NCBI RefSeq assembly: GCF_003122325.1
Contig: NZ_QFBC01000003.1
Location: 62,001-126,000, forward strand
DNA length: 64,000 nt
Origin: Rhizobium album
Lineage (GTDB): Bacteria > Pseudomonadota > Alphaproteobacteria > Rhizobiales > Rhizobiaceae
Reading direction: 5' to 3'
Part shown: positions 18,851 through 47,954 of the stretch, one piece after another
Position numbering within the stretch: position 1 is the stretch's first letter
Layout of the letters: every line of letters begins with the position of its first letter
Notes under the pieces: generated by a model
The model's database searches: none
What the model was told of the DNA's origin: nothing
The model's input: only the letters and a program-made list of their open reading frames with translations
Made by a program: the position numbers and the translations under genes

Positions 18851-19894
18851 ATGACGAAAGTGCGTGCGCTTGTTCTCGAACGCCAGCATGAACTGGCCCT
18901 GCGTGACATCGACCTGCCGATGGCGACCGGCCGCGACGAGGTGAAGATCAAGATCCACACCGTCGGCGTCTGTGGTTCGGATGTGCATTATTATACGCAC
19001 GGCAAGATCGGCCCGTTCGTCGTCAACGAGCCGATGGTGCTCGGTCACGAGGCTGCGGGTACGGTCGTCGAGGTCGGGGCAGGGGTTGCCCACCTGAAAG
19101 TCGGAGACCGCGTCTGCATGGAACCCGGTATTCCCGATCCGAATTCGAAGGCGAGCCGCCTCGGCATGTACAATGTCGATCCGGCCGTGGTCTTCTGGGC
19201 GACGCCGCCGGTCCATGGCGTGTTGACACCCTATGTCGTCCATCCCGCCAACTATACCTACAAGCTCCCCGACAATGTCAGCTTTGCCGAAGGCGCCATG
19301 GTCGAACCTTTCGCGGTCGGCATGCAGGCGGCGACCAAGGCGAAAATCGTTCCTGGCGATACCGCCGTCGTTCTCGGCGCCGGCCCGATCGGCACCATGG
19401 TGGCGATTGCAGCCCTTGCCGGCGGCTGCGCCCGCGCCATCGTCGCTGATCTGGCCCAGCCGAAGCTCGATATCGCCGCGCTCTATCAGGGCGTGATCCC
19501 GGTCAACATCCGGGAAAAGAACCTCGTGGAAGAGGTCAAGGCGCTGACGGACGGATGGGGCGCCGACGTAATCTTCGAATGCTCCGGTTCGCCGAAAGCC
19601 TGGGAGACGATCATGGACCTGCCGCGCCCGGGCGGCGTCATCGTCGCAGTCGGCCTGCCGGTCAATCCGGTTGCCTTCGACGTCTCGACGGCATCCACCA
19701 AGGAGTTGCGCATCGAATCGGTGTTCCGCTACGCCCACCAGTACGAGCGCTCCATCGCGCTGCTGGGCTCCGGTCGCGTCGATCTCAAGCCGCTGATTTC
19801 CGATACGTTCGGTTTCGAGGACGCGATCAAGGCCTTCGACCGCGCCGTGGAAGCGCGGCCCAGCGACGTCAAGCTACAGATCGTCATGGAATAA
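18851..19894 (+). CDS. Zinc-dependent polyol dehydrogenase (xylitol/sorbitol dehydrogenase type)
   Basis: 347 residues, medium-chain dehydrogenase family. Catalytic zinc ligands are Cys41 ([11 protein letters not shown]), His66-Glu67 (LGHEAAGT) and Glu in MVEPFAVG; the Rossmann fingerprint [10 protein letters not shown] is present. The cysteines of the structural zinc loop are absent, as in the sorbitol/xylitol dehydrogenase branch ([19 protein letters not shown]). It would oxidise an alditol to a ketose with NAD. GGGAGGA precedes the ATG at 18851. It converges on the FGGY kinase, and the pair dehydrogenase plus kinase suggests polyol to ketose to ketose phosphate. Substrate specificity cannot be read from sequence. 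Confidence 0.9.
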
Positions 19895-19901
19895 ACATCG
19901 C

Positions 19902-19942
19902 GGCCCACCCCTTGCCGCAGCAAACGCGGTAAGGGGTGGGCC
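19902..19942. terminator. Bidirectional terminator between dehydrogenase and kinase
   Basis: A 17-bp arm (GGCCCACCCCTTGCCGC, 19902-19918) pairs with 19926-19942 with one mismatch around a 7-base loop. It sits exactly between two convergent genes, so it probably ends both transcripts, although there is no strong T-run. Confidence 0.6.
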
Positions 19943-19948
19943 GGTCGG

Positions 19949-21460
19949 TCACCCGACCTGATAGTGTTTCGCCACCTCTTCCAGGTGCCGGTTGGCGAAA
20001 TAGACGGCTGCCTGCTTGCGCGACAAAGCTTCCCATTGCGGCGCGGCGGACAGGTCCGGCTCGATGCGTTCGGCCACCCGCGTCATCGCGCCGACCGCAG
20101 TGTCGAAGGACGGGAACCAGCCGGATCCGACCGCCGCCGAAATACCCGCCCCCAGCGCCGACGCTTCGTTCGAGAGGCTGCGCACCACCGGCAACCCGGT
20201 GGAGTCGGCAACGATCTTCAGCCACAACCGGCTGTCGGCGCCGCCGCCGATCACCAGGATCTGCTCCAGCGACAGGCCGGCCGCGCGCATCAGCTTCAGT
20301 GCCCGGGCAAATTCGAGCGTGATGGCTTCCAGCCCGGCGCGGTAGAGATGCGCCTGCGTGTGCTGCGGCCCGAGGCCGGTGAAGGTCGCCGTCGATTCGA
20401 TATCCCAGTAGGGATCGAGGCAGCCCATCAGGTGCGAGCAGACGGTAACGCCTTCGGAGCCGACCGGCATCTTTAGCCCTGCTTCCTCCAGCCGGCGGAA
20501 CGTCGCTTCCGACCGCCCTCCGGCAAAATTGTCGACGAACCAGTTGACGAAAAATGCACCGGCCCGCTGCACCGATTCCAGGATGTAGCCGTCGCCCGTC
20601 GGCGAGACCAGCGTCCGCCAGGCCTTGCTGATCTCCGCCGTCGGCGACCAGACGCCACCGACGACGGCCGTCCCGAGGTTGAGGTAGACGACACCGGGCT
20701 TGATCGCCCCGACGCCGAGGCCGGCGCACTGGCCGTCGCCGCCGCCGGCAAAAACCGGCGTCCCGGCCTTCAGCCCGGTTTCGGCTGCCGCCGTCTCGGT
20801 AATAGCGCCGACGCGTTCGCCCGGCCGCAGCAGCTTCGGCAGCTTTGTTGTCGGGATTTTCAGATGGTCGAGGATGGTGCGCGACCACTGCTTTTCATGG
20901 ATGTCGAGAATGCCGAAGGGGTCGGCGCTGGTCCATGTCGCAGCCGAGGCTCCCGTCAGCCGCCGCGTCAGGAAGCCATGCACATCGACGATGCCGGCGG
21001 CACTGTCCAACAGCTCCGGCATATATTCCCGGTACCAGCGCAGCCGGTAGACGCAAGGGATACAATCCACCGGCTTGCCGGAGATGCGATGCATCTCATG
21101 GTCGCCGATTTCCGCCGCCATGACCTTGGTGATCTCGGCGGCCCTTCGGTCGAGCCAGAGCGTTGCCGGCGCCAGCGGCTTGCCGTCGGCATCGACGAGC
21201 GCCATGGTCTCGCGCTGGTTCGAAATGGCTATGCCGTCGATCAAGGCGGGATCGATGGCGCCGGTCACCTGCCGGATTGCCGTCACCGCCGAACGCCACC
21301 AGTCCTCGGCATTCTGCTCGGCACGCATCGCATCCGGCTGGAGGATGTCCAGCGGCGCGCGGCCTTCCGCCGCCGCCGTGCCGTCCTTTGCCCATACGAT
21401 TGCCTTCACGGATTGGGTCGAGCTATCGATCCCAATCACATACCGCTCCTCCCGCGACAT
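19949..21460 (-). CDS. FGGY-family carbohydrate kinase (xylulokinase-like)
   Basis: 503 residues with both actin-like FGGY domains. The N-terminal phosphate loop is YVIGIDSSTQSVKAIVW; the catalytic aspartate is in FAGGGDGQCAGLG; the C-terminal nucleotide motif is VIGGGADSRLWLKIVADSTG. ATP-dependent phosphorylation of a ketose or polyol is expected; the family spans xylulose, ribulose, erythritol and glycerol kinases and I cannot separate these by eye. The ATG at 21460 follows GAGGAGGACAGG. It lies downstream of the SorC-type regulator on the same strand with a RIME-like repeat between them, so regulator and kinase are probably one transcript. Confidence 0.9.
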   Translation of the reverse strand: MSREERYVIGIDSSTQSVKAIVWAKDGTAAAEGRAPLDILQPDAMRAEQNAEDWWRSAVTAIRQVTGAIDPALIDGIAISNQRETMALVDADGKPLAPATLWLDRRAAEITKVMAAEIGDHEMHRISGKPVDCIPCVYRLRWYREYMPELLDSAAGIVDVHGFLTRRLTGASAATWTSADPFGILDIHEKQWSRTILDHLKIPTTKLPKLLRPGERVGAITETAAAETGLKAGTPVFAGGGDGQCAGLGVGAIKPGVVYLNLGTAVVGGVWSPTAEISKAWRTLVSPTGDGYILESVQRAGAFFVNWFVDNFAGGRSEATFRRLEEAGLKMPVGSEGVTVCSHLMGCLDPYWDIESTATFTGLGPQHTQAHLYRAGLEAITLEFARALKLMRAAGLSLEQILVIGGGADSRLWLKIVADSTGLPVVRSLSNEASALGAGISAAVGSGWFPSFDTAVGAMTRVAERIEPDLSAAPQWEALSRKQAAVYFANRHLEEVAKHYQVG

Positions 21461-21479
21461 CCTGTCCTCCTCGTCAGAC

Positions 21480-21584
21480 CTAGAGCAATTCCAGCAAAAG
21501 TGCGTAGCGGTTTTGCGTCCGGAATTGCGTAAAAACAAAGGGATAGAGCATTTTCGCGTTTCGGAGAAAAGCGGAAATTCTCTA
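21480..21584. repeat. RIME-like rhizobial intergenic palindromic repeat
   Basis: About 105 bp made of two palindromes. The first arm GCAATTCCAGCAAAA pairs with TTTTGCGTCCGGAATTGC; the second pairs AGAGCATTTTCGC with the segment ending GAAATTCTCT. The stretch AGCGGTTTTGCGTCCGGAAT followed by TGCGTAAAAACAAA is a very common interspersed element in Rhizobium and Agrobacterium genomes, which I equate with RIME1. The right edge overlaps and supplies the stop codon of the SorC-type regulator (21582-21584). Confidence 0.75.
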
Positions 21585-22568
21585 TTTGCCGAGCAACGCT
21601 TCTCCCGTCGCGATGTCGGTTACGAAATGGGTTGCGTAGCCACCGATCAGTGTCGCGTGGATCGCGGTGATCTTGGTTTTTCCTCCGGCAACGCAGATGC
21701 GGCTCGGCACCTGCTGCAGCTCTTCCAGCGCAAGGCCGACCATGCGATCGTCGAGATCGCCCAGCAACGGCCGGCCGGCAGCATCGATGAAGCGGCCGAT
21801 GATCACGCCGACGGCGCCATGGCGGACATATTCGTCGATATCCTCCTGGCTGGCGATACCGGATGCCCGCACCGTGCTCTTCACGCCGATATCGCCGACG
21901 CCGAAGACGATCCGATCGGTGGAATGGATCAGCTCGAACTGCTTCTTCAGCACCGGCTCGTCGAGCAGCATCTCCTTGAGTTCACGCGTCGTCAGCACGG
22001 CGGGCGCCAGAAGATTGACGCAGCGCGCCTTGATGCGGCTCGACATCACCGAGGTGCAGAGTTCGGCGGAAAAATCCGGGCTTCCGGTCGAACTGCCGGT
22101 CACCTGCACGACGGTGAGATTTTCGATCGGCTGAGGCAGCGAAATCAGGTCGGCAACGGCAAGCACCGTGCGTCCCCAGGCGACCCCGATCGTATCGCCC
22201 GGCTTGATCTGCTCGGCGAGCACCCGCGCGCCCGCCTCGCCAAGCCGGTCGACCAGATGTCCATCGTCCAGCGACGGAATGATAAAAACACCGTCGAGGC
22301 CATATTTTTCGGTGAGTTTTCGCGCCAGCGTCGTCCGGCCGTTGGCTTCGCTGGAGATTCGGATCGACACGATGCCGCGCTCGCGCGCTTCCTGCAGATA
22401 GTTGACGATGGTGGCGCGCGAAACCCCGAGCCGCTTGGCGATCTCGCTCTGCGTCAGCTGGTCGGCATAATAAAGCCACGCCGCCCAGACGACGGCGTCG
22501 TCGAATTCCGTCGGCAGGTTCAGCGACCGATCCGGGGCCTGGCTCTTTTCTGAAATCATCTCGGACAT
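21582..22568 (-). CDS. SorC/DeoR-family sugar-binding transcriptional regulator
   Basis: 328 residues. An N-terminal helix-turn-helix (about 27-60: YADQLTQSEIAKRLGVSRAT, then VNYLQEARERGIV) is joined to a SugarBind domain with GDTIGVAWGRTV and the C-terminal GGKTKITAI loop. Such regulators (SorC, DeoR, EryD) respond to phosphorylated sugars and usually repress or activate the adjacent polyol operon. I prefer the ATG at 22568; a longer frame from 22598 would put its start inside the operator-like inverted repeat. Divergent from the G1P dehydrogenase operon, upstream of the FGGY kinase. The stop codon comes from the RIME-like repeat. Confidence 0.9.
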   Translation of the reverse strand: MSEMISEKSQAPDRSLNLPTEFDDAVVWAAWLYYADQLTQSEIAKRLGVSRATIVNYLQEARERGIVSIRISSEANGRTTLARKLTEKYGLDGVFIIPSLDDGHLVDRLGEAGARVLAEQIKPGDTIGVAWGRTVLAVADLISLPQPIENLTVVQVTGSSTGSPDFSAELCTSVMSSRIKARCVNLLAPAVLTTRELKEMLLDEPVLKKQFELIHSTDRIVFGVGDIGVKSTVRASGIASQEDIDEYVRHGAVGVIIGRFIDAAGRPLLGDLDDRMVGLALEELQQVPSRICVAGGKTKITAIHATLIGGYATHFVTDIATGEALLGK

Positions 22569-22593
22569 GAAACGCACCTTGGCGGCAAGCGGT

Positions 22594-22635
22594 GGCATTT
22601 GTCAATTCCGCCTGTCTTCTGTCTTGACAAGTGCC
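22594..22635. promoter_or_regulatory. Operator-like inverted repeat in the divergent promoter region
   Basis: GGCATTTGTCAA (22594-22605) and TTGACAAGTGCC (22624-22635) are inverted copies with a single mismatch. Their centres are 30 bp apart, about three helical turns, so two protein units would face the same side of the DNA. The right arm contains TTGACA, a perfect -35 hexamer pointing at the dehydrogenase operon. This is the natural binding site for the adjacent SorC-type regulator, by inference from position and symmetry. Confidence 0.6.
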
Positions 22636-22685
22636 AAGCAAGGGTGTCTTTTGTTCATCAAGAAAAAACGAGCAGGTCTAGGGAT

Positions 22686-24041
22686 ATGGAAACGGCATCG
22701 CAAACCACGCGCCGGGCCGATGCGCCGGCCGGCGGTTGGACAGCACAAATAGACGACATGGTCGCCGGCCGCTGGGTCAATCCGGAAACGGGCAAGCCCG
22801 CAAGCGTGCCTTATGAACGGATCGTCATCGAAGAGAGCCTTGACGGCGCCGAAGCCGATCTGGTTGCCAGCCTGAAGCTTGGCGAAAAATTCACCGTCGT
22901 CGCCGATGCCGATACCTGGGACGCCATGGGCTCCCGTATCGCCAAGTCGCTGAAAAGCCTCGGTCCTGTCGATACCGTCATCCTCGATCATCCGCATGCC
23001 GACATGGCGCATGTGGAGATGATGAAGGACAAGCTGAAACATTCCGAAGCCATCGTCGCCGTCGGTTCGGGCACGGTCAACGACCTCTGCAAGTTCGTTA
23101 CCGGCCTCGACGGTCGCCGCTACTGTGTCTTCGGAACCGCCGGTTCGATGAACGGCTACACCTCCTCGACCGCTTCGATCACCCTCGAAAGCGGCCTCAA
23201 AGTATCCTTGCCGTCGCATACGCCGGCTGGTTTCTTTGTCGATCTCGGCGTTTCGGCCGCCGCTCCCAAGCATCTTGCCGCTGCCGGTTTTGCCGACTGC
23301 CTGGTGCGCTCCGTCGCGCAGGTAGACTGGTGGCTTTCGCACCGTCTGTTCGGAACCCTGTACAAGACGGTTCCCTACACCATCCAGGAACACGACGAGC
23401 GTGAACTCAACGCCCGTGCCGGCCTGCTGCCGAAGGGCGATGTCTCGGCCCAGGGCTATCTCTACCGTGTATTGACGCTCTGCGGCCTCGGCATTTCCTT
23501 CACCGGCATGTCGAACCACGGCTCGATGGGCGAACACCAGATCTCCCATTACATCGATTGCTTTGCCGGCGACCTGCACAAGGGCACGCTGCACGGCCAG
23601 CAGGTGGGCGCCGGCGTGCTCACCATGGGCCGCCTGCAGCAGCAGATGCTGGCGAGCGACAAGCCGCCGGTCATCAAGCAGACCCGGATCGATCGCGACG
23701 GCATGGCGAAACGCATGGGCGCCGAAGTCGCCGCGCAATGCTTTGCCGAAATCCAGCCGAAGATTTTTGACGAAAAAGGTGCGGCGGAACTCAACGCCAA
23801 GCTCGAAGCCCTGTGGCCCGAGCTGCGCCAGGAACTGCTGGCCTTCATCATCCCCATCGACGAAATGAGCCGGCTGCTTGCCGCTGCCGAAGGTCCGATG
23901 ACCGGCCGCGACCTCGGCCTGCCCTCGGAATTCTACCGCGAGGCCGTCGTCCATTGCCGCGAAATGCGCAACCGCTATTCCTTCCTGGATCTCGCCGCCG
24001 ATGCGGGCATCCTCGAAGAATTCGCAGCAGACGAGGTTTAA
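22686..24041 (+). CDS. sn-glycerol-1-phosphate dehydrogenase family protein (AraM/EgsA-like)
   Basis: 451 residues, iron/zinc-dependent alcohol dehydrogenase-like fold. Diagnostic features are the NAD motif VGSGTVNDLCKFV (about 126-138), the family block GTAGSMNGYTSSTASITLES (150-169), and metal-ligand candidates Asp204 (FADCLVR) and histidines in NHGSMGEHQISHYID and LHGQQVGAG. Known bacterial members (AraM/EgsA) interconvert sn-glycerol 1-phosphate and dihydroxyacetone phosphate with NAD(H); related phosphopolyols are possible. The ATG at 22686 is close behind AGGGAT; the N-terminal 40 residues are longer than in AraM. First gene of an operon with a HAD phosphatase four bases downstream. Confidence 0.85.
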   Translation: METASQTTRRADAPAGGWTAQIDDMVAGRWVNPETGKPASVPYERIVIEESLDGAEADLVASLKLGEKFTVVADADTWDAMGSRIAKSLKSLGPVDTVILDHPHADMAHVEMMKDKLKHSEAIVAVGSGTVNDLCKFVTGLDGRRYCVFGTAGSMNGYTSSTASITLESGLKVSLPSHTPAGFFVDLGVSAAAPKHLAAAGFADCLVRSVAQVDWWLSHRLFGTLYKTVPYTIQEHDERELNARAGLLPKGDVSAQGYLYRVLTLCGLGISFTGMSNHGSMGEHQISHYIDCFAGDLHKGTLHGQQVGAGVLTMGRLQQQMLASDKPPVIKQTRIDRDGMAKRMGAEVAAQCFAEIQPKIFDEKGAAELNAKLEALWPELRQELLAFIIPIDEMSRLLAAAEGPMTGRDLGLPSEFYREAVVHCREMRNRYSFLDLAADAGILEEFAADEV

Positions 24042-24044
24042 GCC

Positions 24045-24860
24045 ATGCGCCCGGTAGCCGACATGCCGCTCGAGACCGCCGCAAATATCACGATCCTGTT
24101 TGCGGATATCGACGACACGCTGACCCATGAAGGACGGCTTCCGGGCTGCGCCTATCAGGCGCTCGAAGACCTGATGAAGGCGGGCATCGCCGTCGCACCG
24201 ATCACCGGCCGCCCGGCCGGCTGGTGCGACATGATCGCCCGCATGTGGCCGGTCACCGGCGTCGTCGGCGAAAACGGTGCGTTCTATTTCTCCTACGACG
24301 AGGCGGCTCGCAAGATGCGCCGCAGCTTCGCCATTCCCGCCGAGACACGTGCGAAAGATCGCGAACGGCTGGTGTCCGTGCGCGAGCGCATTTTGCGCGA
24401 GGTGCCGGGTGCCGCCGTTTCCGCCGACCAGCTTTACCGCGAAGCGGATCTCGCCATCGATTTCTGCGAGGACGTGCCGGCCCTGCCGCGCGGTGATATC
24501 GACCGCATCAAGCAGATCTTCGAGGAGGAGGGCGGCGTCGCCAAGGTCTCGTCCATCCATGTCAACGGCTGGTTCGGCGAATACGACAAGCTGACCATGT
24601 CGAAGCGGTTTGCCCGCGAAATCCTCGATGTCGACCTCGACGCCGGGAAGGATCGCATCGTCTTCGTCGGCGACAGCCCCAACGACGCGCCGATGTTCGG
24701 CTTCTTCCCGAATGCCTGCGGTGTCGCCAACGTCCTGCATTTCCGCGGCCAGATGGAGGCGGAGCCGGCCTATGTGACGCAGAAGGAAGGCGGCTTCGGT
24801 TTCGTTGAGGTGGCCGAGCGGCTGCTGGCGGCGCGGCGCGCCAGGGCAGGTGCCGCATGA
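24045..24860 (+). CDS. HAD-IIB (Cof-like) phosphatase
   Basis: 271 residues. HAD motif I is FADIDDTLTHEG with nucleophile Asp21 and acid/base Asp23; motif II lies at PITGRPAGWC; motif IV is VFVGDSPNDAPMFGFF. The cap is the C2B type, as in sucrose-phosphate and mannosyl-3-phosphoglycerate phosphatases, so a sugar or polyol phosphate is a reasonable substrate. Sandwiched between the G1P dehydrogenase (3-bp gap) and the GlpD-like gene (ATGA overlap), so all three are translated together and probably share a metabolite. Confidence 0.87.
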   Translation: MRPVADMPLETAANITILFADIDDTLTHEGRLPGCAYQALEDLMKAGIAVAPITGRPAGWCDMIARMWPVTGVVGENGAFYFSYDEAARKMRRSFAIPAETRAKDRERLVSVRERILREVPGAAVSADQLYREADLAIDFCEDVPALPRGDIDRIKQIFEEEGGVAKVSSIHVNGWFGEYDKLTMSKRFAREILDVDLDAGKDRIVFVGDSPNDAPMFGFFPNACGVANVLHFRGQMEAEPAYVTQKEGGFGFVEVAERLLAARRARAGAA

Positions 24861-26398
24861 CGACCCGGCGCTTCGACCTCGCAATCATCGGCGGCGGCAT
24901 CAACGGCTGCGGCATCGCCCGCGATGCGGCCGGGCGAGGCCTCGGCGTTTTCCTTTGCGAGCAGGGCGACCTCGGCTCGGCGACGTCGTCGGCCTCGACA
25001 AAACTCATCCATGGCGGCCTGCGGTATCTCGAACATTACGATTTCAAGCTCGTCCGCCATGCGCTGACCGAACGCGAACGCCTCTGGGCGATTGCACCGC
25101 ACATCATCTGGCCGCTGCGTTTCGTGCTGCCGCATCGCAAGGGCCTGCGCCCGGCATGGATGCTGCGGCTCGGCCTGTTCATCTACGACCATCTCGGCGG
25201 CCGCAAGATGCTGCCAGGCACCGAAACGCTCAGGCTGACCACCAATCCGCTCGGCGCGCCGCTGCACGATGTCTCGTCGGTCGGTTTCGAATATTCCGAC
25301 TGCTGGGTACAGGACAATCGCCTGGTCGTGCTGAACGCCCGCGACGCCCGTTCCAAAGGCGCCGACATCCGCGTTCGCACCCGCTGCACCGAAGCCCGCC
25401 GGGAAAACGGCGAATGGCTGGTGACGGTGCAGGACACGGAAACCGGCGAACAGGAAACCATCCGCGCCCGGGCGCTCGTCAATGCTGCCGGGCCGTGGGT
25501 CGATCAGGTGTTGTCATCGACGGTCAAGCTCAAGGCGCCGGGATCTCTGCGGTTGGTGCAGGGCTCGCACATCGTCGTCGACAAGCTCTACGACCACGAC
25601 CGCTGCTACATCTTCCAGAACCCGGACGGCCGGATCTTCTTCTCGATCCCCTACGAGGAAGATTTCACCCTCATCGGCACCACCGACCAGGATTTCAAGG
25701 GCGAACTGTCGAACGTCCGCGCCTCGGAGAAAGAGATCGCCTATCTCTGCGAAGCGGCATCCTCCTATTTCAGCAAGACGATCGCACCCGGCGACGTCGT
25801 CTGGAGCTATTCCGGCGTTCGCGCCCTGTTCGACAACGGCGCGGAAAACGCCCAGAAGACGACACGCGACTACGTGCTGGCCGTCGACAAGGAAAACGGC
25901 GCAGCCCCGCTGCTTTCCGTCTTCGGCGGCAAGATCACCACCTTCCGCTGCCTGGCGGAAGACGCGCTCGAACGGTTGGCGGCAATCTTTCCGGACTGGA
26001 CCCGCCATGCCGGATGGACAGCCACCAAACCCTTGCCGGGCGGCGATTTTCCGGTCGGCGGCGCCGGCACGCTCGCAACGCACCTTCGGCGCGATTACCC
26101 CTTCCTAAGCGAGAAGGAAGCCCGTAGGCTGGTGAAACATTACGGCACGGACGCCCGCATCATTCTTGGCAGGGCGAAATCCGCAGCCGATCTCGGGCGC
26201 GACTTCGGAGGGTCGCTGACCGAAGCGGAAGTTCTCTTTCTCATGCAGCGCGAGTTCACGCTCTGCGCCGCGGATATCGTATGGCGCCGCACCAAGAGCG
26301 GCCTGAGGATGACAGCGCAGGAGATCGAAGCACTCGATCTCTGGATAACGGAATTACGGAAGGACATGGCGAAGCCGCTGATGAAGCAGGCGGGCTGA
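24857..26398 (+). CDS. glpD: FAD-dependent glycerol-3-phosphate dehydrogenase (GlpD type)
   Basis: 513 residues. N-terminal FAD fingerprint FDLAIIGGGINGCGIARDAA, the GlpD signature STKLIHGGLRYLEHYDFKLV, the substrate-binding block VWSYSGVRALF, and a C-terminal helical domain (KEARRLVKHYG onward) as in GlpD. It oxidises sn-glycerol 3-phosphate, or a longer polyol phosphate as in the erythritol homologue EryB, passing electrons to quinone at the inner membrane. Overlaps the HAD gene by ATGA. A perfect 11-bp hairpin follows at 26406-26432, before the transporter genes. Confidence 0.92.
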   Translation: MTTRRFDLAIIGGGINGCGIARDAAGRGLGVFLCEQGDLGSATSSASTKLIHGGLRYLEHYDFKLVRHALTERERLWAIAPHIIWPLRFVLPHRKGLRPAWMLRLGLFIYDHLGGRKMLPGTETLRLTTNPLGAPLHDVSSVGFEYSDCWVQDNRLVVLNARDARSKGADIRVRTRCTEARRENGEWLVTVQDTETGEQETIRARALVNAAGPWVDQVLSSTVKLKAPGSLRLVQGSHIVVDKLYDHDRCYIFQNPDGRIFFSIPYEEDFTLIGTTDQDFKGELSNVRASEKEIAYLCEAASSYFSKTIAPGDVVWSYSGVRALFDNGAENAQKTTRDYVLAVDKENGAAPLLSVFGGKITTFRCLAEDALERLAAIFPDWTRHAGWTATKPLPGGDFPVGGAGTLATHLRRDYPFLSEKEARRLVKHYGTDARIILGRAKSAADLGRDFGGSLTEAEVLFLMQREFTLCAADIVWRRTKSGLRMTAQEIEALDLWITELRKDMAKPLMKQAG

Positions 26399-26405
26399 CA
26401 CGACA

Positions 26406-26432
26406 GCACCGGCGAAGAGTTTTCGCCGGTGC
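26406..26432 (+). other. Stem-loop between glpD-like gene and transporter genes
   Basis: Perfect inverted repeat GCACCGGCGAA / TTCGCCGGTGC with a 5-base loop. No T-run follows, so it may protect or process the message instead of terminating it. Confidence 0.6.
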
Positions 26433-26511
26433 GGCAAATGCTTGAGGTACGGAATGCCGTCTAGAGAACCCCGGAGGAGGGGGCGAGACGGCAGGAGGAG
26501 GGACTGCAGGA

Positions 26512-27399
26512 ATGGCCGTCGCACAGGTCAAACGTATCGCTATTTCGGATTCGCCGATTCCCTGGCTGGCGCCGCTCGTCGCGCTGCTGGTGGTCTTCAC
26601 CATCTATCCGCTGTTCTACAATATCTGGCTGAGCTTCCACGAATATTTCCCGCGCAAGCGCGCCATCCAGTTTGTCGGCATGCAGAACTGGCAGCAACTC
26701 TGGGAAGACACCCGCTTCTGGAGTTCGCTCGGCGTCACCTTCGTCTATTTTGCCGTGGCGCTGGTCTTCGAGATCGTGCTCGGCATGGCGATCGCGCTGC
26801 TGCTCGATGCGGAATTGCCGGGTTTCGGCGGGCTGCGCGCCATCCTGTCGCTGACGCTGGTCATTCCGCCCGCCATCGCCGGCATGATGTTCCTGCTGAT
26901 GGAGGACGCCCAGTTCGGGGTGCTGACCTATATACTCAACTCATTGGGATTGCTGGACAAGACGACACCGATCCTCGCCACGTCCTCCACGGCGCTGGCC
27001 GGCGTGCTGGTGGCCGAGATCTGGCAATGGACACCCTTCATGGTGCTGATCTTCATGGCCGGCCTGCGCTCGCTTCCGGCCGAGCCCTACGAAGCGGCGA
27101 TGATAGACGGTGCCTCCGCCTTCCAGATGTTCCGCCGCCTGACGCTGCCGATGATGTCGAAGGTGATCGCCGTCGCCGTGCTGCTGCGTGGCATCGATCT
27201 GTTCCGTGTCTTCGACTACGTCTTCGTCATGACCTCCGGCGGGCCGGGCACGGCCACCTACACGCTGAGCCTCTATGCCTGGCAACAGACCTTCAGCTTC
27301 ATCAAGTGGGGTTACGGCGCAACATTGAGCCTCGTCAGCCTGGCGATCATCATGGTGCTCGCCAATATCTTCATCCGTGTCTTCAAGGTGAGGTGGTAA
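26512..27399 (+). CDS. ABC sugar-type transporter permease (MalF-like)
   Basis: 295 residues, six predicted transmembrane helices. The EAA cytoplasmic loop that contacts the ATPase reads EPYEAAMIDGASAFQMFRRL. First of a permease pair in a carbohydrate uptake (CUT1) system. Strong ribosome site (GGAGGAGGGACTGCAGGA) before the ATG. The second permease starts two bases after its stop codon. Confidence 0.93.
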   Translation: MAVAQVKRIAISDSPIPWLAPLVALLVVFTIYPLFYNIWLSFHEYFPRKRAIQFVGMQNWQQLWEDTRFWSSLGVTFVYFAVALVFEIVLGMAIALLLDAELPGFGGLRAILSLTLVIPPAIAGMMFLLMEDAQFGVLTYILNSLGLLDKTTPILATSSTALAGVLVAEIWQWTPFMVLIFMAGLRSLPAEPYEAAMIDGASAFQMFRRLTLPMMSKVIAVAVLLRGIDLFRVFDYVFVMTSGGPGTATYTLSLYAWQQTFSFIKWGYGATLSLVSLAIIMVLANIFIRVFKVRW

Positions 27400-27400
27400 G

Positions 27401-28282
27401 ATGCACCAGAGTCGCGGTATCAGAACGCTTCGTACCATCGCCGGATGGCTCGTTGTCGGCGTCTTCTTCTTCCCGATCTATTTCTGGACGACGGTCGCTT
27501 TCCGCAACGCCAAGGATATTTTCAACTGGCCGCCGATCTTCGTCGATTTCGAGCCGACGGCGCGCAACTTCGAACAGGTCTTCGGCATATCGCTGGGTTT
27601 CGGTTTCGGTGCCCAGGAGGCGGTGACGCCGGGCGGCGGCAATTTCTACATGGCGCCGCGCCTGTGGGATTCAATCGTCATCGCCTCGATGTCGACCGTG
27701 CTTGCTATCGTCGTCGCCACGCTCGCCGCCTATTGCCTGTCGCGCATGCATTTTCGCGGACGGCATGAGTTCGTCAACTGGGTGCTGTCCACCCGCATGA
27801 TGCCGCCGGTGGCCGTCGCCGTGCCGATGTTCTTCATCTTCAAGCAGTTCAGCCTGCTCGACACCTATCTCGGCGTCATCCTGGTACACGGGTTGATGAA
27901 CCTGCCGCTGGCGGTGCTGCTGATGAAGAGCTTCTTCGACGACATCCCGTCCGAGATCGACGAGAGCGCGCTGCTCGACGGCGCCTCGCGCTGGACCATC
28001 TTCCGGCGCATCGTCCTGCCGATGGCCAAGGGCGGCATCGCCGCCACCGCCGTGCTCTGCTTCATCTTCTCATGGACGGAATTCCTGTTCGTGCTGACGC
28101 TGACGCAGACCAGCATCAAGACCGTTCCGGTCGTCTCCTCCACCTTCGTGACCTCGATCGGTACGGCCTGGGGGAACATGGCGGCGCTGGGTGCCGCGGC
28201 GATCGTACCTGCCTTCATCGTGATCATGCTGGTGCAGCGCCACCTGGTGCGCGGCCTGACGATGGGATCGCTGAAACAGTAA
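27401..28282 (+). CDS. ABC sugar-type transporter permease (MalG-like)
   Basis: 293 residues, six predicted helices; EAA loop EIDESALLDGASRWTIFRRI. Residues about 55-78 (ISLGFGFGAQEAVTPGGGNF) form a periplasmic insertion before the second helix, longer than in MalG. Pairs with the preceding permease to form the membrane channel. Downstream, a hairpin at 28335-28359 separates it from the binding-protein gene. Confidence 0.93.
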   Translation: MHQSRGIRTLRTIAGWLVVGVFFFPIYFWTTVAFRNAKDIFNWPPIFVDFEPTARNFEQVFGISLGFGFGAQEAVTPGGGNFYMAPRLWDSIVIASMSTVLAIVVATLAAYCLSRMHFRGRHEFVNWVLSTRMMPPVAVAVPMFFIFKQFSLLDTYLGVILVHGLMNLPLAVLLMKSFFDDIPSEIDESALLDGASRWTIFRRIVLPMAKGGIAATAVLCFIFSWTEFLFVLTLTQTSIKTVPVVSSTFVTSIGTAWGNMAALGAAAIVPAFIVIMLVQRHLVRGLTMGSLKQ

Positions 28283-28334
28283 TCCGCCGGACGGGACGGG
28301 AGAGCCCGCCGGCAGACCAGAGGATGAATGAACC

Positions 28335-28359
28335 GCGGGGAACAATGACGTTGCCCCGC
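28335..28359 (+). other. Stem-loop upstream of the binding-protein gene
   Basis: GCGGGGAAC pairs with GTTGCCCCGC with one bulged base around AATGAC. Ends 16 bases before the ATG of the solute-binding protein; the ribosome site GAGGAGGAGAG lies between. Probably an mRNA 5' stabiliser or processing boundary. Confidence 0.5.
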
Positions 28360-28375
28360 ATTGAGGAGGAGAGAC

Positions 28376-29875
28376 ATGAAAGACAGCATCAGAAAAGGCT
28401 ATCTGGCCAACATAACGGACAAATATGTCCGCGGTCAGATGGACCGTCGCGATTTCCTGCGCTTTGCCGGCAAGCTTGGCCTCGGCGCCAGCGCCCTCGG
28501 CATGGGTTTTGGCAATCGCCCCTTCTTCGGCATGTCCAGCGCCCAGGCGCAGGAAGCCTACCAGCCTTCGCCGGATGTCATCGCCTGGCTGAAGGACGTG
28601 GGCAAGCCCTTCGCCGGCACGACGCTGAAGCTGGCAACGGAATCCACCCCGCCGTCCAATGCCATCAACTCGCAGCTCAAGAAATATTTCGAGGAAGCGA
28701 CCGGCATCAAGGTCGAGATCGAAGTCTTGCCGCTGGAGCAGGTCCTGCAGAAGCTGACGCTCGACGTCGCCTCCTCGCTCGGCACCTACGACCTCTATTA
28801 CATCGACCAGAGCTGGGCGGCGAGCTTCAGCCAGGACGTCTTCGATCCGCGTGAGCAGTATTCGGCCAAGGCCGACCTCGCCATGCCGAACTACAATCTC
28901 GACGACTTCCTGCCGGCGCTCGTCGACGGTATCGCCAAGTACGAGGATCGTTGGGTCGGCGTACCTTACGACATCCCGATCTTCATCATGATCTACCGCA
29001 AGGACATCTACGAGAAGCTCGGCCTCAAGGCACCGGCGACGCTCGAGGAGCTGTACACCAACTCCAAGGCCATCACCGACCAGATGGGTCCGAACACCTA
29101 CGGTTATGCCGGCCAGATGAAATCGGGCCATTATGCGCTGGAATGCGAATGGACCTCGTTCCTCTGGGGCCATGGCGGCTCGATCTTCAATGCCGACAAG
29201 AAGTTCAGCGGCAATGACGAGCAGGGCATCGCAGCCCTCGACTACTACAGCAAGCTCCGGGCGATCATGCCCCCGGGCGTCGACGGCTGGACCTGGGACG
29301 GTCAGGGACAGGCGGTTGCCCAGGGCGTTGCCGCTTCCATGCTCTCCTGGGGTGAATTCTTCCCCTATTTCGACGATCCGAGCCAGACGAAGATCTCCGG
29401 TCTTTGCGAAGCCGTCGTTCCGCCGCAGCCGATCGCGCTGCGCACGGTCAAGGAAACCGGCTACGGCGAAATCCCCGGCGTCGGCCACCAGGGCGGTTCC
29501 TCGCTCGCCGTGTCGAAATATTCGAAGAACCCGGATGCAGCATGGCTGTTCATGCAGTGGGCCACCTGCGCCGATACCCAGGTGGGCATCACCGTGCTGG
29601 GCGGCGGCACCGGCCCGACGCGCTCCAGCGTCTATGACGATCCGCGCATCAAGGCCAACGCCCGCGTCGGCGCCGGCACGACCCGCCACCTGCAGGTCGT
29701 GCGCGAAACCATCGCCAACCACATGGGCTCCGAGCCGGACCTGCCGGAATGGGCACAGATCTCCTCCGACACGATCCCGGTCGGCCTCGGCAAGTATTTC
29801 GCCGGCGGCTACGGCTCGTCGAAGGAAGCCATGGACGACATCGCCGGCCAGGTCGAAGGCATCCTGAAGGGCTGA
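28376..29875 (+). CDS. Extracellular solute-binding protein of the ABC importer, Tat-exported
   Basis: 499 residues. The N-terminus carries a twin-arginine signal, DRRDFLRFAG at 23-32, then a hydrophobic stretch and an AQA cleavage site near 58, so the protein is exported folded. The mature part is a family-1 (carbohydrate) binding protein with TLKLATEST, LYYIDQSWAASFSQ and GVPYDIPIFIMIYRKDIYEKL. It captures the substrate in the periplasm and delivers it to the two permeases. Its length and Tat signal resemble rhizobial glycerol and polyol binding proteins such as GlpV. Strong stem-loops flank the gene on both sides. Confidence 0.92.
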   Translation: MKDSIRKGYLANITDKYVRGQMDRRDFLRFAGKLGLGASALGMGFGNRPFFGMSSAQAQEAYQPSPDVIAWLKDVGKPFAGTTLKLATESTPPSNAINSQLKKYFEEATGIKVEIEVLPLEQVLQKLTLDVASSLGTYDLYYIDQSWAASFSQDVFDPREQYSAKADLAMPNYNLDDFLPALVDGIAKYEDRWVGVPYDIPIFIMIYRKDIYEKLGLKAPATLEELYTNSKAITDQMGPNTYGYAGQMKSGHYALECEWTSFLWGHGGSIFNADKKFSGNDEQGIAALDYYSKLRAIMPPGVDGWTWDGQGQAVAQGVAASMLSWGEFFPYFDDPSQTKISGLCEAVVPPQPIALRTVKETGYGEIPGVGHQGGSSLAVSKYSKNPDAAWLFMQWATCADTQVGITVLGGGTGPTRSSVYDDPRIKANARVGAGTTRHLQVVRETIANHMGSEPDLPEWAQISSDTIPVGLGKYFAGGYGSSKEAMDDIAGQVEGILKG

Positions 29876-29894
29876 TCGACAGCAAGCGTGAAGG

Positions 29895-29924
29895 CGGCCG
29901 GCCGGGCAGGGGCCCGGCCGGCCG
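29895..29924 (+). other. Strong stem-loop downstream of the binding-protein gene
   Basis: Perfect 13-bp stem CGGCCGGCCGGGC / GCCCGGCCGGCCG with a 4-base loop, 20 bp after the stop codon and without a T-run. Such hairpins typically stabilise the abundant binding-protein message relative to downstream genes. Confidence 0.65.
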
Positions 29925-29988
29925 TATCCAGCATAAAGGGAGAGGAGCCTCGCCCAGGGGCAGGCTCGTGAATGTCGAGGAGGAGTTC

Positions 29989-30714
29989 ATGGACAAGAAA
30001 CCGTTGGTCGCCATCACCGGCGCCAGTTCCGGCATCGGGGAATCGACGGCACGCGCCTTTTCGGCAGCCGGCCACCCGTTGCTGTTGATGGCGCGCCGGC
30101 TCGACCGGCTGAAAGCGCTCAACCTGCCGAACGCCGTCCTGCGCCAGGTGGACGTGCGCGACCGCGCCGCGATCGCCGCAGCCGTCGCCGACGCCGAAGC
30201 GGAACATGGCCCCGTCGACATGATGTTCGCCAATGCCGGCATCGCCCGTCTCGGCGATATCGCCAAGCAGCCGGCCGAAGACTGGGACGAGATGATCGAC
30301 ATCAACGTCAAGGGCGTGATGAACACGGTTCACGCCGTCATGAACGGCATGATCGAGCGCAAGCAGGGCACGCTGGTGATGATGAGCTCGATTGCCGGCC
30401 GCAAGGTCTATCCGGATCACACCGTCTATTGCGGCACGAAATTTTTCGTCCATGCCGTCTCCGAAAGCCTGCGGGAATATCTGGCGCCGCACGACGTGCG
30501 TGTTATCGTCTTGTCGCCCGGCATCATCGACACGGAAGTGCTGGATCACGTCAAGGACGAGACGACGCTGGCCAACTACAAGGCCAACAAATCGGCGATC
30601 GGCGGCGGCATCCCGGCCGATATCGTCGGCGACCTGATTCTCAATGCCTACCAGCTGCCGCAGCGGGCGCTCGTGCAGGAAATCGTCATCACGCCGACAC
30701 GGCAGAAATACTGA
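29989..30714 (+). CDS. Short-chain dehydrogenase/reductase
   Basis: 241 residues, classical SDR. Cofactor motif TGASSGIGESTARAF near the N-terminus, NAG motif FANAGIAR, catalytic serine in MMSSIAGRK and the active pair in YCGTKFF (Tyr-x3-Lys). Expected to oxidise or reduce a hydroxyl group with NAD(P); within this operon a polyol or keto-sugar is likely. The ATG at 29989 follows GAGGAGGAG; longer readings would start upstream of that site. Confidence 0.9.
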   Translation: MDKKPLVAITGASSGIGESTARAFSAAGHPLLLMARRLDRLKALNLPNAVLRQVDVRDRAAIAAAVADAEAEHGPVDMMFANAGIARLGDIAKQPAEDWDEMIDINVKGVMNTVHAVMNGMIERKQGTLVMMSSIAGRKVYPDHTVYCGTKFFVHAVSESLREYLAPHDVRVIVLSPGIIDTEVLDHVKDETTLANYKANKSAIGGGIPADIVGDLILNAYQLPQRALVQEIVITPTRQKY

Positions 30715-30784
30715 GGCGCGCCGCGCCTCGGCTCTCTTGAAATAATGCAGTTATGGCGCCGGTCGGGCGCAGTGGAGCGTGTTC

Positions 30785-31849
30785 ATGGCAACTGTGGAAT
30801 ATAACAGGATCGGCAAGTCCTTCGGAGCGGTCAACATCATGCGCGACGTGTCGTTTCGCATCGAGGAACACCAGTTCGTCGTGCTTCTCGGCCCCTCCGG
30901 TTGCGGCAAGACCACGCTCTTGCGCATGACCGCCGGCCTGGAAACAGTCAGCGAAGGCGACCTGATGATCGGCGGCAAGCGGGTGAACGACGTCCATCCG
31001 CGTGACCGTGACATCGCCATGGTGTTCCAGAACTACGCGCTCTATCCGACGATGAAGGTCTACGACAACATCGCCTTCAGTCTCGAAGTCGCCAAGGTGC
31101 AGACCGACGAGATCAAGCGGCGCGTCGAGGCGGCGGCCGAAGTCCTGAACCTGACGCCTTACCTGCAGCGTTATCCCAAGGAACTGTCCGGCGGCCAGCG
31201 CCAGCGTGTCGCCATGGGCCGCGCCATGGTGCGCGAACCCTCGGTGTTCCTGTTCGACGAACCGCTGTCGAACCTCGACGCCAAGCTGCGCGCCCACATG
31301 CGCACCGAGATCCGCCAGCTCCACAACCGGCTGAAAACCACCACCATCTACGTTACCCACGACCAGATCGAGGCGATGACCATGGCCGACAAGATCGTCG
31401 TCATGCGCGCCGGCAAGATCGAGCAGATCGGCTCGCCCGACGAGGTCTACGATACGCCGGCGAGCAAATATGTCGCCGATTTCATCGGCTCTGCCGCGAT
31501 CAACTTCATGCCGGGCACGGTGGTGACGGGCGAGGGGCAGCCGGCGGTCGATACCCCGAACGGCCGGATCCGCGTCCTGCCCGGTGCCGCGGTCAAGCCC
31601 GGCCAGAAGGTCATCTGCGGCATCCGCCCGACCGACGCCGTCGTCAGCGACGACGGCCCGATCCGCACCAGGGCGTTGCTCGTCGAACGCATGGGCCACG
31701 ACGTGCAACTCTGCACCGCCGCACCCGCCGGCCAGTTCCTCGCCATCGTCGATCGCTCGCGACCGTTCGCGGAAGGCGTTGAAGTCCGTTTCGACGCGGC
31801 CCCGGAAAAGGTGCACGTCTTCGACGCCGAAACGGAAATGCGCCTCTGA
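30785..31849 (+). CDS. ABC sugar importer ATP-binding protein (MalK/UgpC-like)
   Basis: 354 residues. Walker A GPSGCGKTTLL (36-46), Q-loop VFQNYALYPTM, signature LSGGQRQRVAMGRAM, Walker B FLFDEPLSNLDAKL and the switch His in YVTHDQIEAM. A C-terminal TOBE/MalK-type regulatory domain (about 235-354, SAAINFMPGTVV onward) follows. Powers the two upstream permeases. ATG at 30785 chosen over GTG at 30779. Last gene of the operon. Confidence 0.94.
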   Translation: MATVEYNRIGKSFGAVNIMRDVSFRIEEHQFVVLLGPSGCGKTTLLRMTAGLETVSEGDLMIGGKRVNDVHPRDRDIAMVFQNYALYPTMKVYDNIAFSLEVAKVQTDEIKRRVEAAAEVLNLTPYLQRYPKELSGGQRQRVAMGRAMVREPSVFLFDEPLSNLDAKLRAHMRTEIRQLHNRLKTTTIYVTHDQIEAMTMADKIVVMRAGKIEQIGSPDEVYDTPASKYVADFIGSAAINFMPGTVVTGEGQPAVDTPNGRIRVLPGAAVKPGQKVICGIRPTDAVVSDDGPIRTRALLVERMGHDVQLCTAAPAGQFLAIVDRSRPFAEGVEVRFDAAPEKVHVFDAETEMRL

Positions 31850-32993: not shown

Positions 32994-33103
32994 GAAGAAC
33001 CTTTGAACTGCCAGTCACGCGGACAAAAGCCTCGTGCCCGTGGCAATCTTTTTCGTGAGGCTAGTGTCTTCGAGCGGGTAAATCCATGTCCAGGGGGAAT
33101 TCG

Positions 33104-34030
33104 ATGTTTGTTTCAGAGGCTTTTGCGCTCAGTTCGGCAGTCTGTATCGCACTCAGTTCGATGTTCATCAACGAACTCAACGGACGCGTACCGCTGCTCC
33201 GGCTTGCACGTTGGCAGATCACGGCGGGCTTCGTGATCACGGCCTGTGCCGCCTTGGCCCTGGGAGGGTGGAGAACGCTCGAAAGCTGGCAGGTTTGGTA
33301 TCTGGCAGCCTCTGGCGTCTTCGGCATCGCCATTGCCAGCACGACCTATTTCGCCGCCATCTACATTGCCGGCCCACGCCTGACGGCCTTGCTGTTCTCG
33401 CTGGCATCTCCCTTCGCGCTGATCATGGGATACGTCGCATTCGGCGAAACGATCACCGGAACTCAGGGGCTCGGCGTCGGTCTGATCCTGACGGGGATCA
33501 TCATCGCGATCGGTGTTCGCCGCCGTCGCCCGCCGGCAATGATGCCATTTTCCGACGCACAACCGAACGATTCCATCGTTCCTGTGGGGCCGCCGCCGTC
33601 CTTGCTTGGAATTTCTCTCGTAATCCTCACGGCTTTTGGCCAGGCGCTTGGCAGCCTGCTGGCACGACCCGCGATGGCGTCAGGCGTCGAACCGTTCACG
33701 GCCATGGCAATTCGATCGGGATTGGCAGTGATCTTCTTCTGAGCCTTGCTTGCGCTGCCGGCGGTCCGACGGCAAGCCGCGAGCAGGTTTCACCCGGCCG
33801 ATCTCGGCATTGCGATCACGGCGGCATTTTTCGGCACGGCGCTCGGCATGTCACTCCTGATGGCCGCGCTGAACACCGGAAATGTCGGGATCGTTTCGAC
33901 GCTTTCTTCCATGACGCCCGTCGTCATCCTGCCGATGGTCTGGTTGAGAAGCGGCCAGATGCCACGCCTGCATGCGTGGGGCGGAGCCGCGCTCGCTGTT
34001 ATCGGAACCGCATTGATCAGCGTGCATTAG
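33104..34030 (+). pseudogene. DMT/EamA-family transporter interrupted by one in-frame TGA
   Basis: A ten-helix EamA transporter would be encoded by 308 codons from the ATG at 33104 (MFVSEAFALSSAVCIALSSM), but codon 213 is TGA (33740-33742) in the context AVIFF-stop-ALLALP. The same frame stays open and convincingly EamA-like to 34030 (GTALGMSLLMAALNTGNVGI, WLRSGQMPRLHAWGGAALAV). A TGG-to-TGA change of a tryptophan is the simplest explanation. The truncated product would lose the last three or four helices. Confidence 0.8.
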
Positions 34031-47183: not shown

Positions 47184-47954
47184 TCAAGCCAGCAATTCTT
47201 CGTACGCACGGTAGATGGCGAGGAAGTCCGCGGCTTTCAAGCTCGCGCCGCCGATCAATGCGCCGTCGACATTGGCGACGCCCATCAGTTCCTTGGCGTT
47301 GCCGGGTTTTACCGAGCCGCCGTAGAGGATGCGCATGGTCTTGCCCTGGTTTCCAAAGCGGGCAACCAGTTCCTTGCGCATGAAGGCATGTGCCTCCTCG
47401 ATATCCTTCACGGTCGGCGTCAGGCCGGTGCCGATCGCCCAAACGGGCTCATAGGCGATAACGGTGTTTTCCGCAGTCGCCTCGTCCGGAACGGAACCGG
47501 CAAGCTGACGCTTCAGGATGTCGAGCGTCTGGCCGGCCTGGCGCTGTTCGGCCGTCTCGCCGATGCAGATGATCGCGGTCAGTTCGGCCGCATTGGCGGC
47601 AATCGCCTTGGCGCGCACCAGATGGTCGGTTTCGGCATGGTCCGTCCGCCGCTCCGAATGGCCGACGATCACATAGGTGCCGTAGCAATCGGCGATCATC
47701 TCGGCCGAAATGTCGCCCGTATGGGCGCCGGAGGCATTCTGGTGGCAATCCTGCGCGCCGATGGCGAGCGGGCTGTCGGTGCACAGCGCGGTGGCGACGT
47801 AAAGCAGGGTCGCCGGCGGGCAGATCAATGTCTCGACCTTGTCCGAGAGAGGCGAAAGGACGCCCTCGGCCATCGCCTTGATCTGGTCGAGCGAGGCACG
47901 CGTGCCGTTCATTTTCCAGTTTCCCGCGACAAGCGGGCGAACATCCGGGGTCAT
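47184..47954 (-). CDS. tpiA: Triosephosphate isomerase
   Basis: 256 residues. Interconverts dihydroxyacetone phosphate and glyceraldehyde 3-phosphate. Lys14 lies in VAGNWKMNG, the catalytic His in VIVGHSERR, the catalytic Glu in [11 protein letters not shown], and the C-terminal phosphate loop in GGASL. I use the ATG at 47954; the in-frame ATG at 47966 (MDRLM) is an alternative. It would also handle the dihydroxyacetone phosphate produced by the polyol module. Confidence 0.96.

Follow-up and report, generated by a model that had tools for sequence, protein, structure and literature searches.

A 64,000-nucleotide stretch of the Rhizobium album genome (positions 62,001 to 126,000 of NZ_QFBC01000003.1, a 469-kb contig; hereafter the window) contains, at 18851–31849, a real and widely conserved bacterial gene module that includes an FGGY-family carbohydrate kinase and a dehydrogenase resembling sn-glycerol-1-phosphate dehydrogenase (G1PDH). 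We suggest, giving the idea close to an even chance, that this module imports a polyol, phosphorylates it, oxidizes it to a ketose-1-phosphate and cleaves the latter to dihydroxyacetone phosphate (DHAP) and an aldehyde, with the G1PDH-like enzyme, as well as GlpD or a GpsA-like enzyme, acting as polyol-phosphate dehydrogenases. Support for this interpretation comes from the presence of an FGGY kinase in 64 of 64 comparable loci, of a linked aldolase in 42 and of GlpD or a GpsA-like enzyme in 37, and from a Gln-Arg-Glu (QRE) motif at the glycerol kinase position in 75 of 75 aligned kinases.

In the pathway that we propose, an ATP-binding cassette (ABC) transporter of the CUT1 class would import a polyol, most probably an alditol of five or six carbons, whose terminal CH2OH (C1) would be phosphorylated by the FGGY kinase, and the G1PDH-like enzyme would oxidize the neighboring C2 hydroxyl to yield a ketose-1-phosphate. 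Because sn-glycerol-1-phosphate and sn-glycerol-3-phosphate have opposite configurations at C2, GlpD (in the window) or a GpsA-like enzyme (in other loci) could be expected to oxidize the other C2 epimer and so arrive at the same ketone. D-ribulose-1-phosphate, for instance, might be formed both from D-arabitol-1-phosphate, through the G1PDH-like enzyme, and from ribitol-1-phosphate, through GlpD. A class II ketose-1-phosphate aldolase, which in the window strain would have to act in trans, would then release DHAP and an aldehyde. A medium-chain (MDR) and a short-chain (SDR) dehydrogenase might act on the free polyol, the ketose or the aldehyde, a HAD phosphatase might dephosphorylate either a side product or the ketose-1-phosphate itself, and a SorC protein might control the cluster locally through two palindromes that lie over the promoter. 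We infer all of these reactions, their order, their stereochemistry and the substrate; what the sequences themselves show is the gene content, its conservation, the intact catalytic motifs and a conserved palindrome. The more specific idea that two dehydrogenases of unrelated fold and opposite C2 stereochemistry, the zinc-type G1PDH-like enzyme on one side and GlpD or the GpsA-like enzyme on the other, channel epimeric alditol phosphates (for example those of D-arabitol and ribitol) into a single ketose-1-phosphate, which would make this G1PDH-like branch sugar-catabolic rather than lipid-related, seems to us rather unlikely.

Conservation of the module and its putative operator

The module genes were placed by tblastn in 87 named loci, 7 on plasmids and 80 in genomes, which together with the window make 88; the species-genome scan for the G1PDH-like protein retained the best 80 of 549 relatives. 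Our counts refer to the 64 of these 88 loci (window included) that have 8 kb or more of sequence to either side of the G1PDH-like gene; genes joined by gaps of no more than 2.5 kb and passing gene-specific identity cut-offs were taken as members of the cluster. The loci are mutually related, some species appear twice and all were gathered through the G1PDH-like gene; the counts therefore presuppose that gene and do not represent independent trials. An FGGY-family kinase is found in all 64 clusters (the window's type in 58), SorC in 60, the HAD phosphatase in 55, a CUT1 binding protein in 52 (a CUT2 binding protein in seven) and the SDR in 47. A ketose-1-phosphate-type aldolase occurs in 42, either as a FucA-like protein (Ald2, in 22) or as a RhaD-like aldolase-SDR fusion (in 21), with both present in one. 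GlpD occurs in 27 loci, two of them with fragments, and a GpsA-like enzyme in 20 (either one in 37), which makes GlpD an optional part, and the MDR dehydrogenase is contiguous with the cluster in three, the window being one of them. When at least 70% of each gene was demanded, the counts became 50 for the CUT1 binding protein, 25 for GlpD and 19 for the GpsA-like enzyme, the others being unchanged. Under the same cut-offs, 20 stretches of 20 kb, placed arbitrarily in related genomes and without matching to sugar loci, held just one member, a xylulokinase, and the gene set is therefore beyond what chance would produce. At E ≤ 1e-60 the G1PDH-like protein is present in 29 of the 297 genomes of the window's family, presumably Rhizobiaceae as GTDB defines it, and matches to it at any level occur in 44 plasmid records.

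An earlier sequence-only reading of this DNA had interpreted the region as an uptake pathway for a polyol or a glycerol-containing compound and proposed comparing its operon order across Rhizobiaceae. As far as import and breakdown of a polyol-like compound are concerned, that view agrees with the kinase, the SorC regulator and the two dehydrogenase types of opposite expected stereochemistry, and the comparison bears out the conservation of the module in alphaproteobacteria but not GlpD as a fixed component. The aldolase was invisible to that reading because the window's copy of the module has none.

Reduced copies of the module were observed in Rhizobium etli p42a (L018) and R. hidalgonense (L085). 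In both, permease 2, the binding protein and a downstream GlpD on the opposite strand are represented by fragments (27%, 33% and 37% of their length, respectively), and permease 1 and the usual GlpD were not found, while the kinase, SorC, G1PDH-like, HAD, SDR, ATPase, aldolase-SDR and GpsA-like genes are whole or nearly so.

The kinase (19949–21460, minus strand; start probably at 21460, frame open to 21538) gives a hint of the substrate. In an alignment of 75 window-type kinases, one per locus and each at least 40% identical over more than 80% of the seed, QRE stands at the glycerol kinase position in all 75, and the Asp further on at a GlpK substrate position is found in 74, the remaining sequence having a gap; the Tyr and Phe substrate positions of GlpK, as judged by eye, are not retained. 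In GlpK, according to PMC3245297, Arg83, Glu84, Tyr135 and Asp245 bind the hydroxyls of glycerol and the substrate residues also include Phe270. The window kinase scores 168.8 bits against the GlpK equivalog (cut-off 590) and 293.5 against that of xylulokinase (cut-off 380). QRE is common to the solved glycerol kinases, xylulokinase having QM(H/Y)G instead, and other letters stand at this position in the comparison kinases that we take to be of the ribulokinase, erythritol and rhamnulose types. With QRE kept, two other GlpK positions lost and a score far below the GlpK cut-off, we read this kinase as probably acting on a polyol other than glycerol.

The aldolases of other loci would fit cleavage of a ketose-1-phosphate. 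Ald2 of Acidiphilium is nearest to fuculose-phosphate and ribulose-1-phosphate aldolases, in both cases under the cut-off (217 of 264 and 167 of 300), and the aldolase-SDR of R. leguminosarum passes the bifunctional aldolase/SDR equivalog (1056, cut-off 639) and stays under that of rhamnulose-1-phosphate aldolase (460 of 568). Twelve genomes were identified that have the aldolase-SDR but no G1PDH-like gene. The seven of them that we looked at retain a 71–80% identical aldolase-SDR, together with a PfkB kinase in five, SorC (55–68%) in six and at least one copy of the palindrome described below in six (in three just upstream of an ABC operon), and no window-type FGGY or G1PDH-like gene was found in these seven loci; one of them (L194) is without SorC, PfkB and the palindrome. 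It seems that a direct sugar kinase replaces the pair of kinase and dehydrogenase in such loci, and this exchange of PfkB for the FGGY and G1PDH-like pair fits the idea that both types of locus make a common ketose-1-phosphate.

The SorC/DeoR-type sugar-binding regulator (21582–22568, minus strand; PF04198; start inferred, frame open to 22598) is separated from the G1PDH-like gene by a gap. In 44 of 66 loci this gap contains the palindrome TGnCAnnTGnCA, with 68 sites in the 14,286 bp of such gaps versus 15 in the remaining 1.30 Mb of these loci. The pattern was taken by eye from 13 gaps, 12 of which have it, and was found in 32 of the other 53. Within the whole 64-kb window there are only two exact copies, both in this gap and 32 bp apart: the putative operators TGGCATTTGTCA (22593–22604) and TGACAAGTGCCA (22625–22636), the latter overlapping a TTGACA −35-like hexamer that begins at 22624 and, as judged by eye, holding most of it. 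When one mismatch is allowed, the window has 14 matches against 18.3 expected by chance and hence no excess, so that only the exact, paired sites carry weight. SorC is presumably the protein that binds the palindrome.

We also considered whether an aldolase stands under the same putative operator in this genome, and set this candidate aside. A scan with TTGNCANNTGNCAA, which is stricter than TGnCAnnTGnCA and misses weaker sites, gave 10 strand hits at five palindromic places, one of them the window's own; around three of the others, for which only seed matches and the starts of open reading frames were used, no aldolase family was recognized. The palindrome at C3:184089 precedes a GntR-regulated FGGY/HAD/transketolase/Fe-ADH_2 locus (L202, G000:C3:180000–199900) with two FGGY kinases, a HAD phosphatase, a split transketolase, an Fe-ADH dehydrogenase, a regulator of the GntR/aminotransferase type and a TTGTCATATGCCAA palindrome in its promoter region.

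Dehydrogenases and other proteins of the module

For the product of 22686–24041 (plus strand) we propose, from profile matches and motif alignment, a role as polyol-1-phosphate 2-dehydrogenase. It contains an Fe-ADH_2 domain (PF13685, 119 bits, cut-off 28) and reaches only a third of the cut-off of the G1PDH equivalog PRK00843 (129.8 of 413 bits). Asp204, His284 and His303, which we take to be the metal ligands, are conserved in 88 of 88 cluster proteins, and in the GSGT motif for NAD both Gly residues are invariant, Ser is present in 87 and Thr in 81 of these proteins. The Asp of the substrate motif xDGxT is replaced by Asn in 78 and retained in 10; since these 10 members retain it, the change was dropped as proof of a new substrate. 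Public records frequently label members of this branch sn-glycerol-1-phosphate dehydrogenase, and others iron-containing alcohol dehydrogenase.

The GlpD-type FAD dehydrogenase (24857–26398, plus strand), the third GlpD of the genome, passes the GlpD equivalog (762 bits, cut-off 360) and retains the motifs GGLRYLE, SGVR, TRDY and GGKxTT, to which we presumptively assign an active-site role. These motifs do not fix the substrate, because the paralog in an erythritol-type locus of the same genome (C10) has them too. The two other GlpDs are 59% (C60) and 50% (C10) identical to that of the window, and weaker relatives occur at C61 (31%) and C45. In a quick tree, whose support values were not read, GlpDs of the window's type are separated from those of C60 and C10, except that the GlpD of L111 groups with C60 and those of L121, L125 and L141 with C10; in the last three loci the GlpD concerned sits apart from the G1PDH-like gene.

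The HAD-IIB phosphatase (24045–24860, plus strand) has by profile matches and alignment a complete set of catalytic motifs (DIDDT, TGR, K and GDSPND), whose residues are invariant in 71 of 71 aligned cluster HADs, and for this reason it looks like an active phosphatase. Its gene overlaps that of GlpD by 4 bases and follows the G1PDH-like gene after a gap of 3 bases, so the three are probably co-translated; the overlaps and short gaps that the sequence-only reading had noted in the enzyme part are thus real. The same is true of the eleven genes and their families, all of which were found where that reading placed them, give or take a few codons, with their domain calls confirmed. It had also pointed to tpiA near 47184, and this gene exists (PF00121), although at a distance of 15 kb it does not belong to the module.

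The remaining genes are all on the plus strand. Two CUT1 permeases (26512–27399 and 27401–28282, both by profile match) are followed by a solute-binding protein of the SBP_bac_1 family (28376–29875, frame open from TTG 28361), with a start read by eye as Tat-like (RRDFLR), and by the SDR dehydrogenase (29989–30714, by domain match) and a UgpC/MalK-type ATPase (30779–31849, starting at GTG 30779 or ATG 30785; PRK11650 451.3, cut-off 432). The solved structure nearest to the binding protein is 5iai (27% identity, Z 43.1), too distant for transfer of its ligand, which we take to be ribitol; the ligands of structure matches 2 to 12 are maltose, trehalose or glucose. For the CUT2 binding protein of the Acidiphilium type, the nearest solved relatives by sequence are 4rsm, 5hko and 4rs3, whose ligands are presumably polyols; a fold of this protein from one sequence was set aside (mean pLDDT 34). 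The MDR zinc dehydrogenase of the sorbitol/xylitol dehydrogenase type (18851–19894; ADH_N and ADH_zinc_N), convergent with the kinase, has matches to sorbitol dehydrogenase (3qe3, 1.5e-76) and xylitol dehydrogenase (7y9p, 5e-61), and a homolog (65–86%) lies on the G1PDH-like locus in L073 (6 kb off), L146, L150 and L152. Beyond the module, at 33086–34020 (plus strand), a frame that we take to encode an EamA/DMT-type transporter has one in-frame stop after about 218 codons and continues beyond it, possibly as a pseudogene or through a sequencing error.

Alternative pathways

Several observations weigh against the polyol-phosphate interpretation. We know of no Fe-ADH_2 enzyme that acts on pentitol or hexitol phosphates, and the window GlpD, with its authentic motifs, may simply oxidize glycerol-3-phosphate. 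The pathway leaves the role of the HAD enzyme unexplained. Six of the 64 loci, all of the Shinella type (L020, L135, L138, L139, L145 and L149), have no window-type kinase and carry XylB and/or a ribulokinase-like FGGYb. No aldolase is linked to the cluster in the window or in 21 others of the 64 loci; in two of the latter (L129 and L143), additional tblastn detected an aldolase belonging to a different class. The best aldolase-SDR of this genome (51%, C34) and its two class II aldolases (49% and 47%) lie in other loci, and the palindrome was not found in front of them, occurring once in the surrounding stretches (L172), about 4 kb from the aldolase. To these points should be added the conditional nature of the counts and the precedent of the haloarchaea, where, according to PMC9700705, a protein bearing the G1PDH annotation proved to be a glycolaldehyde reductase and showed no notable activity with glycerol-1-phosphate.

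This precedent suggests the main rival, which we consider improbable: the FGGY kinase would phosphorylate a ketose, the aldolase would yield DHAP and either glycolaldehyde or a comparable aldehyde, and the G1PDH-like enzyme would reduce the aldehyde. According to the same source, a HAD phosphatase, a FucA-type ribulose-1-phosphate aldolase and the reductase share the haloarchaeal non-carboxylating pentose bisphosphate pathway, which likewise produces DHAP and is the closest characterized precedent for this trio; unlike what we propose for the module, it starts from nucleosides via ribose-1,5-bisphosphate. The match of the Acidiphilium aldolase to the haloarchaeal ribulose-1-phosphate aldolase family (RU1PAldHalo, the score under the cut-off given above) points in the same direction. 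However, the window protein scores 25.4 bits against the haloarchaeal reductase family (GlycoaldRedHalo, NF053832; cut-off 550), compared with its 129.8 against PRK00843, and does not belong to that family. Moreover, the G1PDH-like gene is kept in the 22 loci, out of 64, that have no linked aldolase, tracking the kinase rather than the aldolase, it is absent from the seven aldolase loci described above, five of them with a PfkB kinase, and the kinase motif suggests a polyol.

A second possibility, which we hold to be quite improbable, is that proposed by the sequence-only reading, namely import of a glycerol-containing compound and conversion of sn-glycerol-1-phosphate and sn-glycerol-3-phosphate, by G1PDH and GlpD, directly to DHAP. 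The high score and conserved motifs of GlpD, together with the retained metal and NAD motifs of the G1PDH-like enzyme, would fit such a route, but it fails to account for the 37 of 64 loci in which GlpD is absent while the FGGY and G1PDH-like genes stay, and for the aldolases, which would be superfluous in a glycerol phosphate pathway. In addition, no phosphodiesterase or glycosidase is among the module genes, both the kinase and the G1PDH-like protein fall far under the respective equivalog cut-offs, and a glycerol-type locus, judging by its gene make-up, lies elsewhere in the genome (C60: GlpD, two ATPases, two permeases and a binding protein) and looks like the rhizobial glycerol operon. 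The module was for this reason rejected as the glycerol operon itself. Phosphoglycerol from cyclic glucans, as a possible source of glycerol-1-phosphate, was also rejected, as the module has no phosphodiesterase and the kinase and aldolase partners are unfitting. What survives of the earlier proposal is the convergence of two hands, which would concern longer polyols instead of glycerol phosphates.

Weakest, and in our judgment very improbable, is the oxidation of a pentitol-5-phosphate at its far C2 to D-xylulose- or D-ribulose-5-phosphate for the pentose phosphate pathway, which accounts for aldolase-free loci such as the window, agrees with the authentic XylB of the Shinella-type locus L020 (503, cut-off 380) and leaves the 42 linked aldolases unexplained. 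The arabitol phosphate dehydrogenase that could serve as its precedent is an MDR-type protein and not an Fe-ADH_2 enzyme. Its occurrence in Bacillus methanolicus, with xylulose 5-phosphate, is described in PMC6685057.

Relation to known systems

Text searches for this gene set met no published description and no assigned substrate, in keeping with the statement of the sequence-only reading that no pathway with exactly this set was known to it; as the searches did not cover most subscription journals, this is weak evidence of absence. The parts themselves are known families. FGGY, G1PDH-like, GlpD or GpsA-like and HAD genes also cluster in Rubrobacter and, without the GpsA-like gene, in Shinella, and we count these parallels in favor of the proposed pathway. 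Two Rubrobacter plasmids (L153 and L154), an actinobacterial parallel to the module, each carry three FGGY kinases and one or two G1PDH-annotated dehydrogenases, along with a GpsA-like protein (inferred in L154), a GlpD-like protein, a HAD-IIA protein, RpiB and a DHA-kinase-family protein. The Shinella plasmid pcSHIWSC3 (L156) has a run of GlpD, a class II FBA-type aldolase, subunits of a TPP-dependent dehydrogenase, a sugar ABC transporter, an Fe-ADH gene adjoining an FGGY kinase, in which QRET is found again, and a HAD protein.

In Bacillus, the araABDLMNPQ operon combines the HAD phosphatase AraL, the G1PDH AraM, the FGGY kinase AraB, AraD with a class II aldolase fold and a CUT1 transporter; it differs from the module in that AraL is of the HAD-IIA type, the substrate is arabinose and there is no GlpD. 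A Priestia plasmid locus likewise has araB, araA and a G1PDH together. AraM was characterized as a true G1PDH, as stated in a review (PMC4244643). The label of sn-glycerol-1-phosphate dehydrogenase is tied to the divide between archaeal and bacterial lipids, and our results suggest that many genes labeled as archaeal-type lipid precursor enzymes may instead serve the catabolism of sugar alcohols. Because the constant partner of the G1PDH-like gene here is an FGGY kinase and not a recognized lipid enzyme, a polyol-phosphate dehydrogenase role for bacterial G1PDH-like genes is directly testable. If true, it would bear on the presence of AraL and AraM in the Bacillus arabinose operon, and plant-associated Rhizobium, Sinorhizobium, Mesorhizobium and Agrobacterium would gain a defined polyol route with its own operator.

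Closer relatives are found in the window's own family and genome. Five PfkB/aldolase-SDR/SorC loci of the family (L195–L198 and L200) have an aldolase-SDR 72–79% identical to that of the R. leguminosarum module, a SorC 55–68% identical to the window's and at least one copy of the module palindrome, but PfkB replaces the FGGY and G1PDH-like genes and the transporter is CUT2-like. The erythritol (ery) locus of Rhizobium and Brucella, represented in this genome by C10, shares with the module an FGGY-type kinase, a SorC-family regulator, a GlpD-type enzyme, an Aldolase_II protein, a HAD phosphatase and a CUT1-type transporter. It differs in its kinase motif (GQGDG, compared with QRET in the window), in having no G1PDH-like enzyme among its listed open reading frames and in possessing an AP_endonuc_2 protein, triosephosphate isomerase (TPI) and a DerI/EryI isomerase (NF051858, over the cut-off); its RpiB-family protein passes the cut-off for D-erythrulose-4-phosphate isomerase (254.9 of 240). 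The module has none of these isomerases, and with EryC, TPI and DerI/EryI not among its genes and the isomerase families located at C10, it was rejected as an erythritol locus. Nevertheless, the overall logic of the module resembles that of the erythritol pathway, and the use of the same logic at C10 speaks in favor of the polyol-phosphate route that we propose.

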